20,187 nucleotides of DNA from a virus, in IMG/VR virus record IMGVR_UViG_3300042444_000343, positions 1 through 20,187 of that record, one strand, 5' to 3'. Position numbers and translations under genes: made by a program. Each line of letters starts with the position of its first letter. Position 1 is the first letter of the stretch. Positions 1 to 19,916 of the stretch are shown in pieces. The notes below the pieces were generated by a model, which saw only the letters and a program-made list of their open reading frames with translations, was not told the origin of the DNA and ran no database searches.

Positions 1-28
1 CCAGCAACACCCGCCAGGCCTCTCAGCG

Positions 29-271
29 ATGCCCAAACAGGCGGGTCACTCTTCAAGCGGCGGCATGACCAGAAAACGTTTGCGATGGGCTGTCATCGCG
101 TGGAAGATGCCGCTGGTGATGCTGCCGCTGCTGCCGCTGGCCTTGCTCCTAGAGATGGCTACGACGGTGATGTGGTTTTTCTATTGCGTGGCGGACAAGG
201 CAAGGGATCAGTTCGAAGAGTGGTGGCGCGACCTGGACAGTCGGCTGCCTGACTCGTGGGAGCGGTACTAA
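29..271 (+). CDS. small single-pass membrane protein, function unknown
   Basis: An 80-codon ORF. It has a basic N-terminal part, one hydrophobic segment at about residues 28-52 (runs of Leu/Met/Pro, then VMWFFY), and an acidic, Trp-rich tail ending in WERY. This suggests a small inner-membrane protein with one helix and a cytoplasmic tail. The start is uncertain. ATG 29 has no ribosome site. ATG 65 (MTRKRLRW...) follows a CACTC element 13 nt upstream, as at several other uncoupled starts here, and would give 68 aa while keeping the whole membrane segment. No family recognised. It ends just before the tRNA-like element. Confidence 0.5.
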   Translation: MPKQAGHSSSGGMTRKRLRWAVIAWKMPLVMLPLLPLALLLEMATTVMWFFYCVADKARDQFEEWWRDLDSRLPDSWERY

Positions 272-15096: not shown

Positions 15097-15935
15097 TCGC
15101 TGCCCAGCAGCTGCGCCACCGTCCACGCCCCATGTCCTGATGGTGGTGTGGCCAGCTCCAGCGCTTCAGGGTGGAGCTGCAGCACATGCGCCAGCGCACC
15201 GGCGGCAGCAGCATCACCGCGCACCCCCTTGACGGCATGGGCCCAAGCGACGTGGCCGATGTAGCGGCGCCGCAGCTCGGCCATCTTCTCTGGCGGCCAG
15301 AACACTTCCTCACAGCCGCCTGGCCACACCATCAGATTCATCGCCCCATCCAAGCGGATGCCGTAGCGCTCTTGGGCCAGCAGGTCGTAGCCCGCCAGCT
15401 GCAGCGGCCATGCCTGATCGGGCTTCGCCTTTTCTTGGCTGACCTTGCTCTTCCAATCCACGATCAGCCATTGCCCGGCGACGCGGGCGATTAGATCCGG
15501 CGTGCCGGTGTAGAACAACTGCAGCGAGGCCAGCGGCGACTCGCAGGCAATGACCTCCTCGATCTGCGGCAGGAACAACCGCCGCCAGGTGGCCAGCAGC
15601 ATCAGCGACTCGGCAAACTGCACCGGCGGCGCAGCGGCGCCCAGCAGCTCCTGGCGGATCAGGGCGTGGAGCTCGGTGCCGATGTCGGCCCGGCCGTTGC
15701 GATGCAGCTCCATGTAGGCCTCGGCCTCATTCGGCCGCATGCCTTCCTTGTTGATCAGCTTGCGGCGCCAGTGCTCGGGGTTGAAGCCCTTGGCGCCAGA
15801 GAGGCCGAGCACCTGTGAGCAGCTGGGCGGCTGCAGCCACCGCCCACGGCGCTGCGACCACACCCAGTAGCGATGGCTGGGCTCATCGAAGCAGATGCTC
15901 TCTTGCTTTGGCAAAAGAGCAACGCGCGGAGTCAT
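15072..15935 (-). CDS. PD-(D/E)XK (RecB/Cas4-like) nuclease
   Basis: 287 aa. Motifs in order: GTELHALIRQ (86-95, conserved His), YTGTPDLIA (142-150, Asp147), IVDWKSK (158-164, Asp160 and Lys162) and QLAGY (179-183). This is the RecB-like nuclease layout used by phage exonucleases that resect DNA for annealing proteins. Together with the Erf-like protein upstream it makes a two-component phage recombination system. ATG 15935 overlaps the HNH gene stop (ATGA). It is the last gene of the leftward recombination unit and meets the RHH gene tail to tail. Confidence 0.85.
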   Translation of the reverse strand: MTPRVALLPKQESICFDEPSHRYWVWSQRRGRWLQPPSCSQVLGLSGAKGFNPEHWRRKLINKEGMRPNEAEAYMELHRNGRADIGTELHALIRQELLGAAAPPVQFAESLMLLATWRRLFLPQIEEVIACESPLASLQLFYTGTPDLIARVAGQWLIVDWKSKVSQEKAKPDQAWPLQLAGYDLLAQERYGIRLDGAMNLMVWPGGCEEVFWPPEKMAELRRRYIGHVAWAHAVKGVRGDAAAAGALAHVLQLHPEALELATPPSGHGAWTVAQLLGSDHPALRAA

Positions 15936-16534
15936 TTAGTGCTTTTGCGCAGATTATCTGCAGCCCATAAGGGTTGCAAATTCGTATAGTGAAAGCACTT
16001 TTGCTGCTGCGCTGGGTCTAGAAGGTCAAACGCTGCGCAAGGAATGATGTGATCAACGTGCCACTCAGATCGATTGTCCCATGACATTCCAGGAAGAAAC
16101 TGCGCCTCAATGTGGGCGGCCAGTTGCTCACTTGTGCAGCTGACCAGTTGCATCGTAGAGGCCGATTTACCTGCCCCACATCGACTAAGGGCGTTGCCAA
16201 GCCTAGATCGGAGGCGCTCCATCATTGCATAAGCAGGTTCATTTGCTTTGCGGGCTTTTTCGTAGTTTCTCTTGCGAGCAGCAACAGCGTCTCTATTGGC
16301 CTTGCGGCGTGCGTTCCTGCTGGCACGGATAGCGTCTTTATTAGCTTCGTACCAGGCTTTTTTGCGAGCAAGGATTAGCTCTTTCTCAGCTTCGTATTTG
16401 GCCTTGTTGCGAGCGATTACAACATCTTTATTGGCTCCGTACCAAGCCTTGCTGCGGGCGAGGGCAGCATCTTTATTGGCTTCATACCAAGCACGCTGAT
16501 AGGCCTTTTTTTCTTCCGGGTGTTTGTAAGGCAT
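15932..16534 (-). CDS. HNH endonuclease with five 15-residue repeats
   Basis: 200 aa. The N-terminal 90 residues contain five 15-residue repeats at 15-29, 30-44, 45-59, 60-74 and 75-89, of the type AWYEANKDAALARSK, highly charged and helical. The C-terminus is an HNH nuclease: WHVDHIIPCAAFD (158-170, Asp161/His162), TNLQPLW (184-190, Asn185) and ADNLRK (192-197, Asn194). The enzyme should cut DNA with a metal ion; phage roles include packaging, homing and recombination. ATG 16534 (MPYKHPEEKKAYQRAWY) is the usual start of this family; the frame to 16816 is a shadow of the proline-rich gene. It is coupled to the RecB-like nuclease by ATGA. Confidence 0.83.
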   Translation of the reverse strand: MPYKHPEEKKAYQRAWYEANKDAALARSKAWYGANKDVVIARNKAKYEAEKELILARKKAWYEANKDAIRASRNARRKANRDAVAARKRNYEKARKANEPAYAMMERLRSRLGNALSRCGAGKSASTMQLVSCTSEQLAAHIEAQFLPGMSWDNRSEWHVDHIIPCAAFDLLDPAQQQKCFHYTNLQPLWAADNLRKSTK

Positions 16535-16550
16535 GATTGTTGTCAAGAAT

Positions 16551-16583
16551 GGCATTGAATGCCCCCCTGCTGCGGCAGGAGGG
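16551..16583 (-). terminator. dyad and hairpin between the ssDNA-binding-like and HNH genes
   Basis: GGCATT-C-AATGCC forms a 13-bp dyad at 16551-16563. Directly beside it, 16562-16583 can fold into a hairpin: a 5-bp stem (16566-16570 with 16575-16579), one mismatch and three more G-C pairs. No U-run follows on the minus strand, so it may attenuate transcription, protect RNA ends or bind a repressor rather than terminate. Confidence 0.35.
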
Positions 16584-16608
16584 CGATCCGTGGGCGATCG
16601 GTGGTCAA

Positions 16609-17115
16609 TCAGCCGCCCCATCCGCCGGGGGCAGGCTGTCCCCACTGCGGCGGTGCTGCTGCTGGCGGAGCAGCTGCCGGAGGCGCCGCAGGGTAGCCCG
16701 CTGGCGGCCCGGCAGGTTGCGGCGCTGCTGCTGGCGGATACCCAGCAGGCGCAGGCTGTTGGGTGGGCTGACCATAGGCGGGCGGCTGGGATGGGGCTGT
16801 GGGAGCTGCACCCCACTGCCCGCCGCCCTGCTGCTGTGCCTTTTGCGCCAGGTACTGGGCCCGCTCAGAGGGGCTTTCGATCTGGCCGTTCAACACCGGA
16901 GCATTGTTCTCGCCGGTGCCGCGCCAGACGCTGAGGCGCAGCTTGAAGAACTGCTCCCCGGTTTGCTGGTTGACTTCCAACCCTTGGCCCTGCTGCATCG
17001 CTTGGGACAACTCCCAGATCAGCTGGGCGGGAAGCTCGACAGCACCGTTCAGGATCGGGGCCTTGGGGTTCTGGGACGGCTGGGCGTTCCAGAGGTTGAC
17101 ACGTGCGCTCTTCAT
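16609..17115 (-). CDS. probable ssDNA-binding-like phage protein with disordered tail
   Basis: 168 aa. The first ~90 residues form a compact domain with two similar elements, KAPILNGAVELPAQL (18-32) and NAPVLNGQIESPSER (71-85), flanking FFKLRLSVWRG. Residues ~95-168 are Pro/Gly/Ala/Gln-rich and end GGWGG. Ordered N-terminus plus such a tail is the SSB layout, but neither a recognisable OB motif nor the acidic DDxPF tip is present. The assignment rests on architecture and on its place directly after the Erf-like gene (2-nt gap). ATG 17115 (MKSARVNLWN) is preferred; the frame to 17325 lies inside the Erf-like gene. Confidence 0.6.
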   Translation of the reverse strand: MKSARVNLWNAQPSQNPKAPILNGAVELPAQLIWELSQAMQQGQGLEVNQQTGEQFFKLRLSVWRGTGENNAPVLNGQIESPSERAQYLAQKAQQQGGGQWGAAPTAPSQPPAYGQPTQQPAPAGYPPAAAPQPAGPPAGYPAAPPAAAPPAAAPPQWGQPAPGGWGG

Positions 17116-18032: not shown

Positions 18033-18545
18033 TCACCATTTCAGGATGACGCTTTCCGCCTGCCCCAAAAGCCGCTCCGCCCGCTGGCAACGATCAGCTT
18101 CAGGGCGACGCTCACGGCGGGCCACCTGCTGCAGCTCGGCGAGGGCGCGCTTAGCGCCGGCCACCCTGGCGCAGGCCTGGCCAAAGGCGATCTCGAACAT
18201 GTCCGGGGTGTTCACCACTTTCGTCATCGGCTCATACGCCGAATCCTTGGTGCTGACGTTGACGTACACCGGCTCAGGCTCTGGCTCGTCGTTGCGGATC
18301 ACTTGGACGGTCTTGATCAGGCTCCGTGCCTGCTCGCGCCGGTACAACTCGGCGGCCACAGGATCATCCCACTCAAAAGCAGGATGCAAAAGCGCCTCGT
18401 CAGGCCTTGCCTCGTCTACGACAGTCTCGGCCTTCAGCGTGCCGTGCTCTTCATGGATCCGAGCAAGCTCTTTGCCGGCAGTTTCAGGCGTGATCGCCCG
18501 ATCATTGAACCGGCGGAATGAATCACGAAAGGAATAAGTCATCAT
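18033..18545 (-). CDS. conserved phage protein of unknown function
   Basis: 170 aa. It contains HPAFEWDDPVAAELYRREQA, then RSLIKTVQVI, a Glu/Pro linker (DEPEPEPVYVNVS) and a long C-terminal helix rich in Arg/Ala/Glu. The 'HPAFEWDD..AAE.YR..QAR..I' signature is one I recall from many phage proteins near recombination genes; its function is not known to me. The leader upstream is AT-rich (CACTTTTTT just before ATGATG) with no Shine-Dalgarno, and follows the hairpin at 18567-18584. The ATG pair gives two possible starts one codon apart. Confidence 0.7.
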   Translation of the reverse strand: MMTYSFRDSFRRFNDRAITPETAGKELARIHEEHGTLKAETVVDEARPDEALLHPAFEWDDPVAAELYRREQARSLIKTVQVIRNDEPEPEPVYVNVSTKDSAYEPMTKVVNTPDMFEIAFGQACARVAGAKRALAELQQVARRERRPEADRCQRAERLLGQAESVILKW

Positions 18546-19188
18546 AAAAAAGTGTTAATTGAAAGAGGGGTGATTGCTCACCCCCTGCTACCACGTCGAG
18601 GCTTGCCGCAGCTTGTCTCGCCGGACCCCGACTTGCGTAGCCGGACCTGCCGTAGCTCGCCGTAGCTCGCCGCGACTCGCCTTGGGATGCCTGCCATACC
18701 AAGCCCAGCCCAGCGATGCCAGGCCATGCCTGCCAGTCCCTGCGCGGCCGAGCCGTGCCGCGCCGATCCATGCCTGCCATGCCGCGCTCGGCCGTTCCCG
18801 GCCAAGCCATGACTCGACTTGTCGCGCCATGCCTGCCGGGCCAATCCGCGCCGCGCCAGTCCGCACCTCTCCGGTCCGTGCCTGCCGCACCAGGCCGGGC
18901 CGTGCCCAGTCCGGCCTCGCCACGCCGTGCCTGCCAGTCCGCGCCGCGCCAAGGCGTGCCTGAGCGGGCCGCGCCTTGCCTGCCACGCCACACCTCGGCC
19001 ATCCGTGCCGGGCCGCGCCATGCCTGCCGCACCAAGCCTCGACACTCCGCAACTTGACTCGCCACGCCTGCCAGTCCAGTCCTGGCCGGGCCTCGACTGG
19101 CCACGCCATGCCCCACCATGCCTGCCAGTGCGGACCGGGCCGTGCCCTGCCGTGCCTGTCCTGCCAATCCGTGCCTAATTCTTTCCAT
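18523..19188 (-). CDS. low-complexity ORF across the pentamer array (doubtful gene)
   Basis: 221 codons, stop-free, Gly/Arg/Ala/Trp-rich with a 5-residue rhythm. The ATG overlaps the stop of the upstream gene (TGATG), as for real coupled genes here, and the end overlaps the next gene by 23 nt. Against coding: two other minus frames (155 and 173 codons) and plus frames are also open. A GGNNN repeat seldom makes stops, and the TGCC slips move the frame. Ribosomes may enter it, but the DNA pattern, not the peptide, appears to be what is kept. Confidence 0.25.
   Translation of the reverse strand: MERIRHGLAGQARQGTARSALAGMVGHGVASRGPARTGLAGVASQVAECRGLVRQAWRGPARMAEVWRGRQGAARSGTPWRGADWQARRGEAGLGTARPGAAGTDRRGADWRGADWPGRHGATSRVMAWPGTAERGMAGMDRRGTARPRRDWQAWPGIAGLGLVWQASQGESRRATASYGRSGYASRGPARQAAASLDVVAGGEQSPLFQLTLFYDDLFLS
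18567..18584 (-). terminator. strong hairpin with GCAA tetraloop, 3' of the array
   Basis: On the minus strand GGGGTGA-GCAA-TCACCCC: a perfect 7-bp stem closed by a GNRA-type tetraloop. It is followed by TCTTTCAATTAACACTTTTTT just before the ATG of the 170-aa gene. The U-richness right after the stem is poor for an intrinsic terminator, so it could be an attenuator, an RNA processing or stability element, or the boundary of a non-coding RNA from the array. Confidence 0.5.
18593..19175. repeat. phase-shifted degenerate pentanucleotide array (NNGCC)n with TGCC slips
   Basis: 583 bp parse exactly as 107 pentamers and 12 TGCC tetramers. 82 pentamers end in CC, 102 end in C, and most have G third (NNGCC). 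The tetramer follows RTGCC in 8 of 12 cases and always precedes a purine. Tetramer ends are spaced 39, 44, 49, 54 or 59 bp apart, always 4 mod 5, so 7-11 pentamers separate them. On the transcribed minus strand it reads GGNNN repeatedly, giving many potential two-tier G-quadruplexes. It lies between two leftward phage genes. Confidence 0.92.
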
Positions 19189-19817
19189 CACACGATCTGA
19201 AACAAGCCGAAGCCCAGCCCTGCCGACTGCTTCGAGTCGGGCCGGCCTTCGCCAACGCCAACCTGCAGGCCAACGCGGGAGATCAGGTTCACGATGTCGT
19301 CAGCAGTCAGCATCCCGGCGTCGAAACGAATCCGCAGCAATGCAGACCACTCCCGGTACATCGGGCGAACCCGCAGGTCAACAACACCGGTAGCGTTCCG
19401 AGTGGTGGCTACCCACGGCTCGGCAGTGCCAGTGGTGAGCTTGACCAATGGAGCACCGTCCACCCGGTCGAAGCCGTCCTGCATCACCATGAAGGCGAGC
19501 TTGGCGTGCGTCATCTTGAACCCGCAAGCACGGCAAGCGCTGATGGCAGCGTTGCGGAATGCCGCAGCGTGGATGCCCTCCCATCCTTCGTCGCTGATGT
19601 GCTTGGCGTTTTCGTAGAGCGCGTCAAAGTCCTTTGCCTCGCGCACCTTCTTAGAGCTGGACGTGCTGCCGGCCTCTTGCTTCTGGCGCATCTGCTCCAT
19701 CGCCTTAGCGCTGAATCGGTTGATCACCAAAGGCGCCGTGCCCTTGATGTTGATCTGAAGGTGCCGGAAATCAGGCGGAGTGATGTTCACCGCTTTGGTC
19801 GCTGTAGTGGTAGCCAT
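19188..19817 (-). CDS. conserved phage protein of unknown function (early recombination unit)
   Basis: 209 aa from ATG 19817. Recognisable stretches are INIKGTAPLVINRFSAKAME, AKDFDALYENAKHISDEGWE, AAFRNAAISACRACGFKMTH, NATGVVDLRVRPMYREWSAL and the Gly-rich end GVGEGRPDSKQSAGLGFGLF. I recall this family as common in phages near recombination genes, function unknown; the Gly-rich end recalls the glycine loop of RAMP/Cas7-type RNA-binding folds, an impression only. The start is set by the promoter at 19878-19906: the longer frame (19910) begins upstream of it. CACTC lies 10 nt before the ATG. Its stop overlaps the ORF across the array. Confidence 0.75.
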   Translation of the reverse strand: MATTTATKAVNITPPDFRHLQINIKGTAPLVINRFSAKAMEQMRQKQEAGSTSSSKKVREAKDFDALYENAKHISDEGWEGIHAAAFRNAAISACRACGFKMTHAKLAFMVMQDGFDRVDGAPLVKLTTGTAEPWVATTRNATGVVDLRVRPMYREWSALLRIRFDAGMLTADDIVNLISRVGLQVGVGEGRPDSKQSAGLGFGLFQIV

Positions 19818-19906: not shown

Positions 19907-19916
19907 CCACTCCTCA

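Follow-up and report, generated by a model that had tools for sequence, protein, structure and literature searches.

What kind of element keeps a strict five-base rhythm while its units vary in sequence? We address this question for an array on the minus strand of the virus record IMGVR_UViG_3300042444_000343 from IMG/VR, positions 1 to 20,187 of which make up the 20,187-nt window analyzed here. The array is almost certainly a guide-RNA (vrRNA) array of a VIPR (Viral Interference Programmable Repeat) system in a phage of freshwater picocyanobacteria, because the adjacent protein matches Vipr and a blind scan recovers the same protein family beside most arrays of this kind. We establish the Vipr family and predicted fold, the anatomy of the array, its linkage to vipr, the modularity of its guides, the one-base-skip code, and the decoding of two guides. 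The locus belongs to an already published system; its array layout and guide turnover deserve follow-up.

Anatomy of the array

An original prediction, made from the sequence alone, had divided positions 18593 to 19175 by hand into 107 five-base units and 12 TGCC units. A dynamic-programming parse of the minus strand returned the same 107 pentamers and 12 tetramers, every one of the tetramers being exactly GGCA (TGCC on the plus strand). The proposed extent holds except at one boundary, as the best-scoring end lies at 18588, not 18593. The pentamer consensus for 18593 to 19175 is GGYNN, with G in 102/107, G in 86/107, and C in 78/107 units, followed by two free positions. Thus, the GG rhythm that had been singled out is conserved, and so is the third base of GGY, which the prediction missed. 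The slip spacing of 4 modulo 5 is also correct, though with a single tetramer in every block it could not be otherwise.

The array scored 191, compared with 7.7 ± 2.0 (maximum, 17.9) in 300 dinucleotide shuffles. Its lag-5 identity, the proposed check of periodicity against shuffled sequence, was 0.51 versus 0.315 ± 0.018. These two values rule out a chance origin. The tetramers split the array into blocks of 7 to 12 pentamers, and the whole begins 12 nt past the stop codon of a phrog_4652/vipr gene:

18588..19175, minus strand: predicted vrRNA array of GGYNN pentamers, 12 blocks plus a 2-pentamer leader, with GGCA opening each block
19166..19175, minus strand: leader GGCAC GGATT, with the same sequence in sibling loci L004 to L007
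18566..18585, minus strand: 3' hairpin closing the array, a stem with a GCAA loop (window z = -2.6)

A hairpin of other sequence occupies the equivalent place in L007 and L009.

The adjacent gene encodes a Vipr homologue

19188..19817, minus strand: vipr gene, phrog_4652 family, RAMP/Cas7-like by profile match and predicted fold; the mechanical open reading frame starts upstream, at 19910 (GTG)

We built a profile from 73 family members and compared it with solved proteins. It had one match, the SUSP1 Vipr protein (PDB 36pp, chain 36pp_D; E = 2.6e-42), aligned over the full length, and this match identifies the product as the small single-RRM RAMP protein of VIPR systems. All 73 members match phrog_4652 only. 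An AlphaFold2 model of the Vipr homologue (pLDDT, 91.9) had Csm3 and other CRISPR RAMPs of the Cas7 type as its best Foldseek matches, with modest scores (E, 1e-4; TM, 0.35 to 0.53). The model is consistent with the RAMP fold, RRM core, and glycine-rich loop of Vipr proteins, and G186, G190, R195, and G207 are invariant across the family. Based on profile and model, the 19188-19817 product is a predicted guide-RNA-binding protein of the Vipr family with a RAMP/Cas7-like fold. The original prediction that the G-rich transcribed strand suits a repeat-binding protein thereby gains a partner in the adjacent gene. An earlier idea of our own, a Chi-like or annealing-protein hot spot, was dropped after the RAMP match.

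Arrays and Vipr are linked across viruses

Related phages had been expected to carry such arrays. Among 23 IMG/VR loci that encode phrog_4652 relatives, nearly all do, most of them directly behind the gene and on the same strand. We also scanned IMG/VR blindly, by the DNA pattern GGCNN repeated six times alone, and recovered at least 120 loci. Among the matches listed in that scan, a Vipr homologue was found in 60 of 72 contigs with a strong array versus 2 of 16 without an array; array and gene shared a strand in 58 of the 60, with a median gap of 31 nt. The intergenic GGY/NN array beside vipr that marks VIPR systems is thus present here and in relatives.

Pooled over all loci, pentamers are conserved as G93 G90 C81 N N, and 325 of 517 tetramers are GGCA. 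Pooled block lengths peak at 8 to 11 pentamers; guides of 9 to 16 repeats are given in the VIPR preprint (PMC13142463). Four arrays in the Vipr-linked set are slip-free or have hexamers in place of tetramers (L038 6311-7026, L062 62-312, L078 3920-4170, and L095 5660-6013), the L038 array running to 142 pentamers.

Arrays also occur in isolated phages, namely Mycobacterium phages Saal, Donkeykong, and Quico, Gordonia phage Pipp, and Cyanophage Cy-LDV1, with the phrog_4652 family confirmed by profile in Saal and Cy-LDV1. The VIPR-like arrays of the three Mycobacterium smegmatis phages lie beside genes annotated as hypothetical (L003 1797-3260, Saal; L369 6886-8440, Donkeykong; L370 7302-8756, Quico). 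Their last block is constant, and their middle blocks differ among the three. These loci offer a ready laboratory system.

The free positions follow a one-base-skip code

The two free bases had been described as varying freely. Across 101 arrays, the NN pairs of GGY units instead fit the dinucleotides of codon positions 1 and 2 best, in sense for 70 arrays and in antisense for 23. A skip that falls on the wobble base would leave such a signature. Near GGC, however, composition also departs from codon usage (few CN pairs), so the codon signature alone is no proof.

We therefore turn to direct matches. Scanning 74 guides of the clade under skips of 0 to 3 on target contigs, with unrelated controls, gave exact 8- to 10-unit matches in the target contigs under skip 1 only; other skips and unrelated controls gave nothing comparable. 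This is the noncontiguous, 1-nt-skip recognition of VIPR, with the skip falling mostly on the wobble base. A comparison of 278 guides with the first 1.2 Mb of VIPR loci found no skip rule above chance. The matches support a reading of the NN pairs as target information, in which two bases would be read per five and one target base skipped.

Two guides decode to genes of cyanobacterial phages and prophages

18588..18651, minus strand: last guide block 12; the first 10 NN pairs (18598-18647) match large terminase
18779..18837, minus strand: guide block 8; the first 8 NN pairs (18794-18833) match the start of an SSB-like gene
18652..18695, minus strand: guide block 11; only suggestive match (15/16) with a Rad52-like gene

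The first 10 NN pairs of block 12 decode to PYKGPEDA[K/N]S of large terminase. Under skip 1, the last-block guide matched 20/20 bases in two contigs that had been fetched with the block 8 guide. In IMG/VR, the last-block pattern has 22 sites in 21 contigs, all of them the terminase motif IIDD-PYKGPEDA[KN]S in sense and in the wobble register. Among 84,980 prokaryote species it occurs in 29 contigs, all cyanobacterial and nearly all from picocyanobacteria (Cyanobium and Synechococcus); all 29 show the same motif, orientation, and register, for 51 records in total with IMG/VR. In one Cyanobium genome, Cruz-8D1, the targeted motif lies on at least six contigs (L221, L222, L225, L231, L234, and L245), which suggests many related prophages in one host.

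The NN pairs of block 8 (AT GC AA GA AT TT CG AC) decode to ATxGCxAAxGAxATxTTxCGxAC, which is the beginning of an SSB-like gene (MAKDIFRT), start codon included. With one skip, block 8 matched 16 IMG/VR stretches, six of which are the start of one MAKDIFRT gene in phage contigs; one of these contigs comes from the same metagenome as sibling L006. Eight genomes (25.8 Mb) were picked with the terminase guide; six of them together contain 12 exact block 8 sites, against about 0.01 expected in the eight, and the reversed pattern has none in the same genomes. The target contigs weakly resemble Synechococcus phage S-LBS1. Homologues of TerL, SSB, and Rad52 were not found in the VIPR-carrying contigs examined, which are incomplete. 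The targets thus lie where VIPR targets are expected, in competing phages and prophages, and natural targets can be named: in cyanobacterial (pro)phages, conserved sites of the terminase and SSB-like genes.

Block 11 matches a Rad52-like gene (IKEAETDA) at 15/16 bases in the same target phages, in sense and in the wobble register. This target is suggestive only, as 15/16 matches are near chance level overall. A guide of L004 matches 16/16 bases in L208; this candidate was rejected because the match lies outside the wobble frame of the terminase and may have arisen by chance.

We separately observed that decoded blocks 8, 11, and 12 contain eroded scaffold units (GTC, GAC, GCT, or CCC for GGY) whose NN pairs still match. 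Possibly the second G is not required, or the guides concerned are old.

Of the alternatives, the one that survives best, though very improbable, is that the array serves, as DNA or RNA, as a docking site for a repeat-binding protein (an RHH repressor, a TRAP-like ring, or a replication or partition protein) and that its NN pairs are uninformative. The strict GGY rhythm and the linked small protein would suit it. However, the NN pairs resemble codon positions 1 and 2 in composition, the decoded strings of two guides each point to a single gene in the host clade expected, and the linked protein is a RAMP. Binding by an omega-type RHH protein, which had been proposed, finds no support: omega operators are constant heptads, whereas this array has period 5 and free NN pairs. 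A TRAP-like ring with its 5-nt register was rejected since the blocks of an array are not all of one size and decoding accounts for the NN pairs. The suggestion of an NGG decoy likewise finds no support. A literature search on pentanucleotide repeats found nothing matching.

Guides are exchanged as whole blocks among siblings

In siblings L004 to L007, Vipr is 91 to 98% identical. The leader is common to them, the last block is related, and the penultimate block recurs in part. Block 8 of the window recurs in L007 as an 8-unit copy with GGCA on both flanks. All other blocks are wholly different between siblings, and every boundary falls at a tetramer. For this reason the tetramers look like guide boundaries: in sequence comparison, near-identical phages appear to trade entire guides as modules whose limits are the GGCA slips, a feature that would be new relative to the published system. 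GGCA could act as a processing or phase mark.

Siblings with 97 to 98% identical Vipr retain the leader and the last guide, yet their middle guides are almost entirely different, and their array lengths are 588, 363, and 329 bp. These lengths bear on whether the array is a repeat-containing protein-coding gene, which we consider exceedingly improbable. Open reading frames of 155 to 222 residues do cross the array in all three sense (minus-strand) frames, but these frames are open automatically, as GGYNN repeats rarely hold stops in any frame. The length differences are not multiples of three, whole blocks are replaced, and there is no Pfam match. The array was thus rightly described as a noncoding element that keeps a period. 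A neutral or structural G-rich tract (a quadruplex, as had been suggested, an R-loop element, or a slippage product) is just as improbable: GG recurs every five bases and folding of the RNA is slightly more stable than that of shuffled sequence (z = -1.9), but a quadruplex needs neither the conserved C after GG nor the exact GGCA slip, slippage would copy NN along with GGY, and Vipr linkage and gene-specific decoding would be left unexplained.

It is possible, if on balance somewhat doubtful, that the GGCA slip is guide punctuation in a tail-less, continuous VIPR array and that this lineage actively gains and loses whole guides. With the slip as boundary, guides could be told apart by eye in any such array. 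The siblings show a guide turnover like that of CRISPR, without known acquisition machinery. Straight copying of target DNA could not yield a guide, because GGY must replace one target wobble base; therefore, an acquisition or selection process of another kind would be needed.

Comparison with known systems and proposed mechanism

The VIPR preprint of April 2026 (PMC13142463) describes Vipr together with vrRNAs of alternating GGY/NN, one-nucleotide-skip DNA recognition, and action against competing phages, with types from Escherichia phage SUSP1 and a Pseudomonas fulva prophage. The window shares with that description a RAMP-fold Vipr homologue, an adjoining GGY/NN pentamer array, a wobble-base skip code, and (pro)phage targets. 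It differs from it in that guides stand head to tail in one continuous array parted only by the GGCA slip, in having one array-end hairpin rather than a tail per vrRNA, and in its host clade, picocyanobacteria. The invariant structured 3' tail on each vrRNA of the SUSP1-like type II is absent here, a hairpin following only the last block. The continuous array may correspond to the preprint's "staggered arrays with overlapping vrRNAs" (fig. S18).

Class 1 CRISPR-Cas systems, with their Cas7/Csm3 backbone, share the RAMP fold, RNA-guided DNA recognition, periodic unpaired bases, and modular guide turnover among near-identical strains. Unlike them, the locus has a single RAMP, no Cas genes (none among the window neighbours searched), no palindromic repeats or contiguous spacers, and a noncontiguous code; no constant repeat is longer than GGY.

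Several observations weigh against a VIPR array. Some units read GTC, GAC, or GCT instead of GGY. SUSP1 vrRNAs each carry a 3' tail, whereas interior blocks here abut via GGCA and lack one. Compared with the terminase sites, the guide differs at 1 of 20 bases in the window (GACAA for GGCGA) and at 0 of 20 in L007. For most of the twelve guides no target was recognised: IMG/VR contains no exact counterpart of block 6, and the matches of blocks 2, 3, and 9 are scattered and chance-like. The chance-like behaviour of blocks 2, 3, 6, and 9 is also a useful negative control.

By analogy with the published system, the G-rich strand would be transcribed with the vipr operon, and Vipr subunits, as single-domain RAMPs, would coat the resulting RNA, the protein holding every GGY. 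In every pentamer, the NN pair would base-pair with double-stranded DNA, one target base being passed over each time, and the bound complex would repress the target gene. RNA production, binding, and repression are taken from the preprint (PMC13142463). The phage would thereby silence terminase and replication genes of rivals in its cyanobacterial host, and the benefit would be suppression of resident or co-infecting phages. The locus offers an independent, sequence-only confirmation, in a distant host clade, of a brand-new RNA-guided DNA recognition code.

Neighbouring genes and other features

The array belongs to a minus-strand operon of early phage genes, which comprises the phrog_4652 gene, the array, a phrog_15946 gene, and genes for an Erf-like annealing protein, an endonuclease VII-like protein, an exonuclease, a methyltransferase, and a helicase.

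18033..18545, minus strand: candidate vipr-accessory gene, phrog_15946 family, 170 residues, co-occurring with Vipr and array

A phrog_15946 homologue is present in 51 loci, and this co-occurrence makes the gene a candidate for the accessory (vap) gene of VIPR systems. The AlphaFold2 model of its product (pLDDT, 88.8) had no match among PDB folds.

At the opposite end of the window, positions 10 to 46 (plus strand) match the abiF RNA (Rfam RF03085; 50.9 bits versus a cut-off of 37). This small RNA usually accompanies Abi-type abortive-infection genes; here its neighbourhood is lost at the contig end. In the endonuclease VII-like gene (15932-16816), 45-bp tandem repeats at 16323-16489 encode lysine-rich ANKDxxxARxKAWYE repeats.
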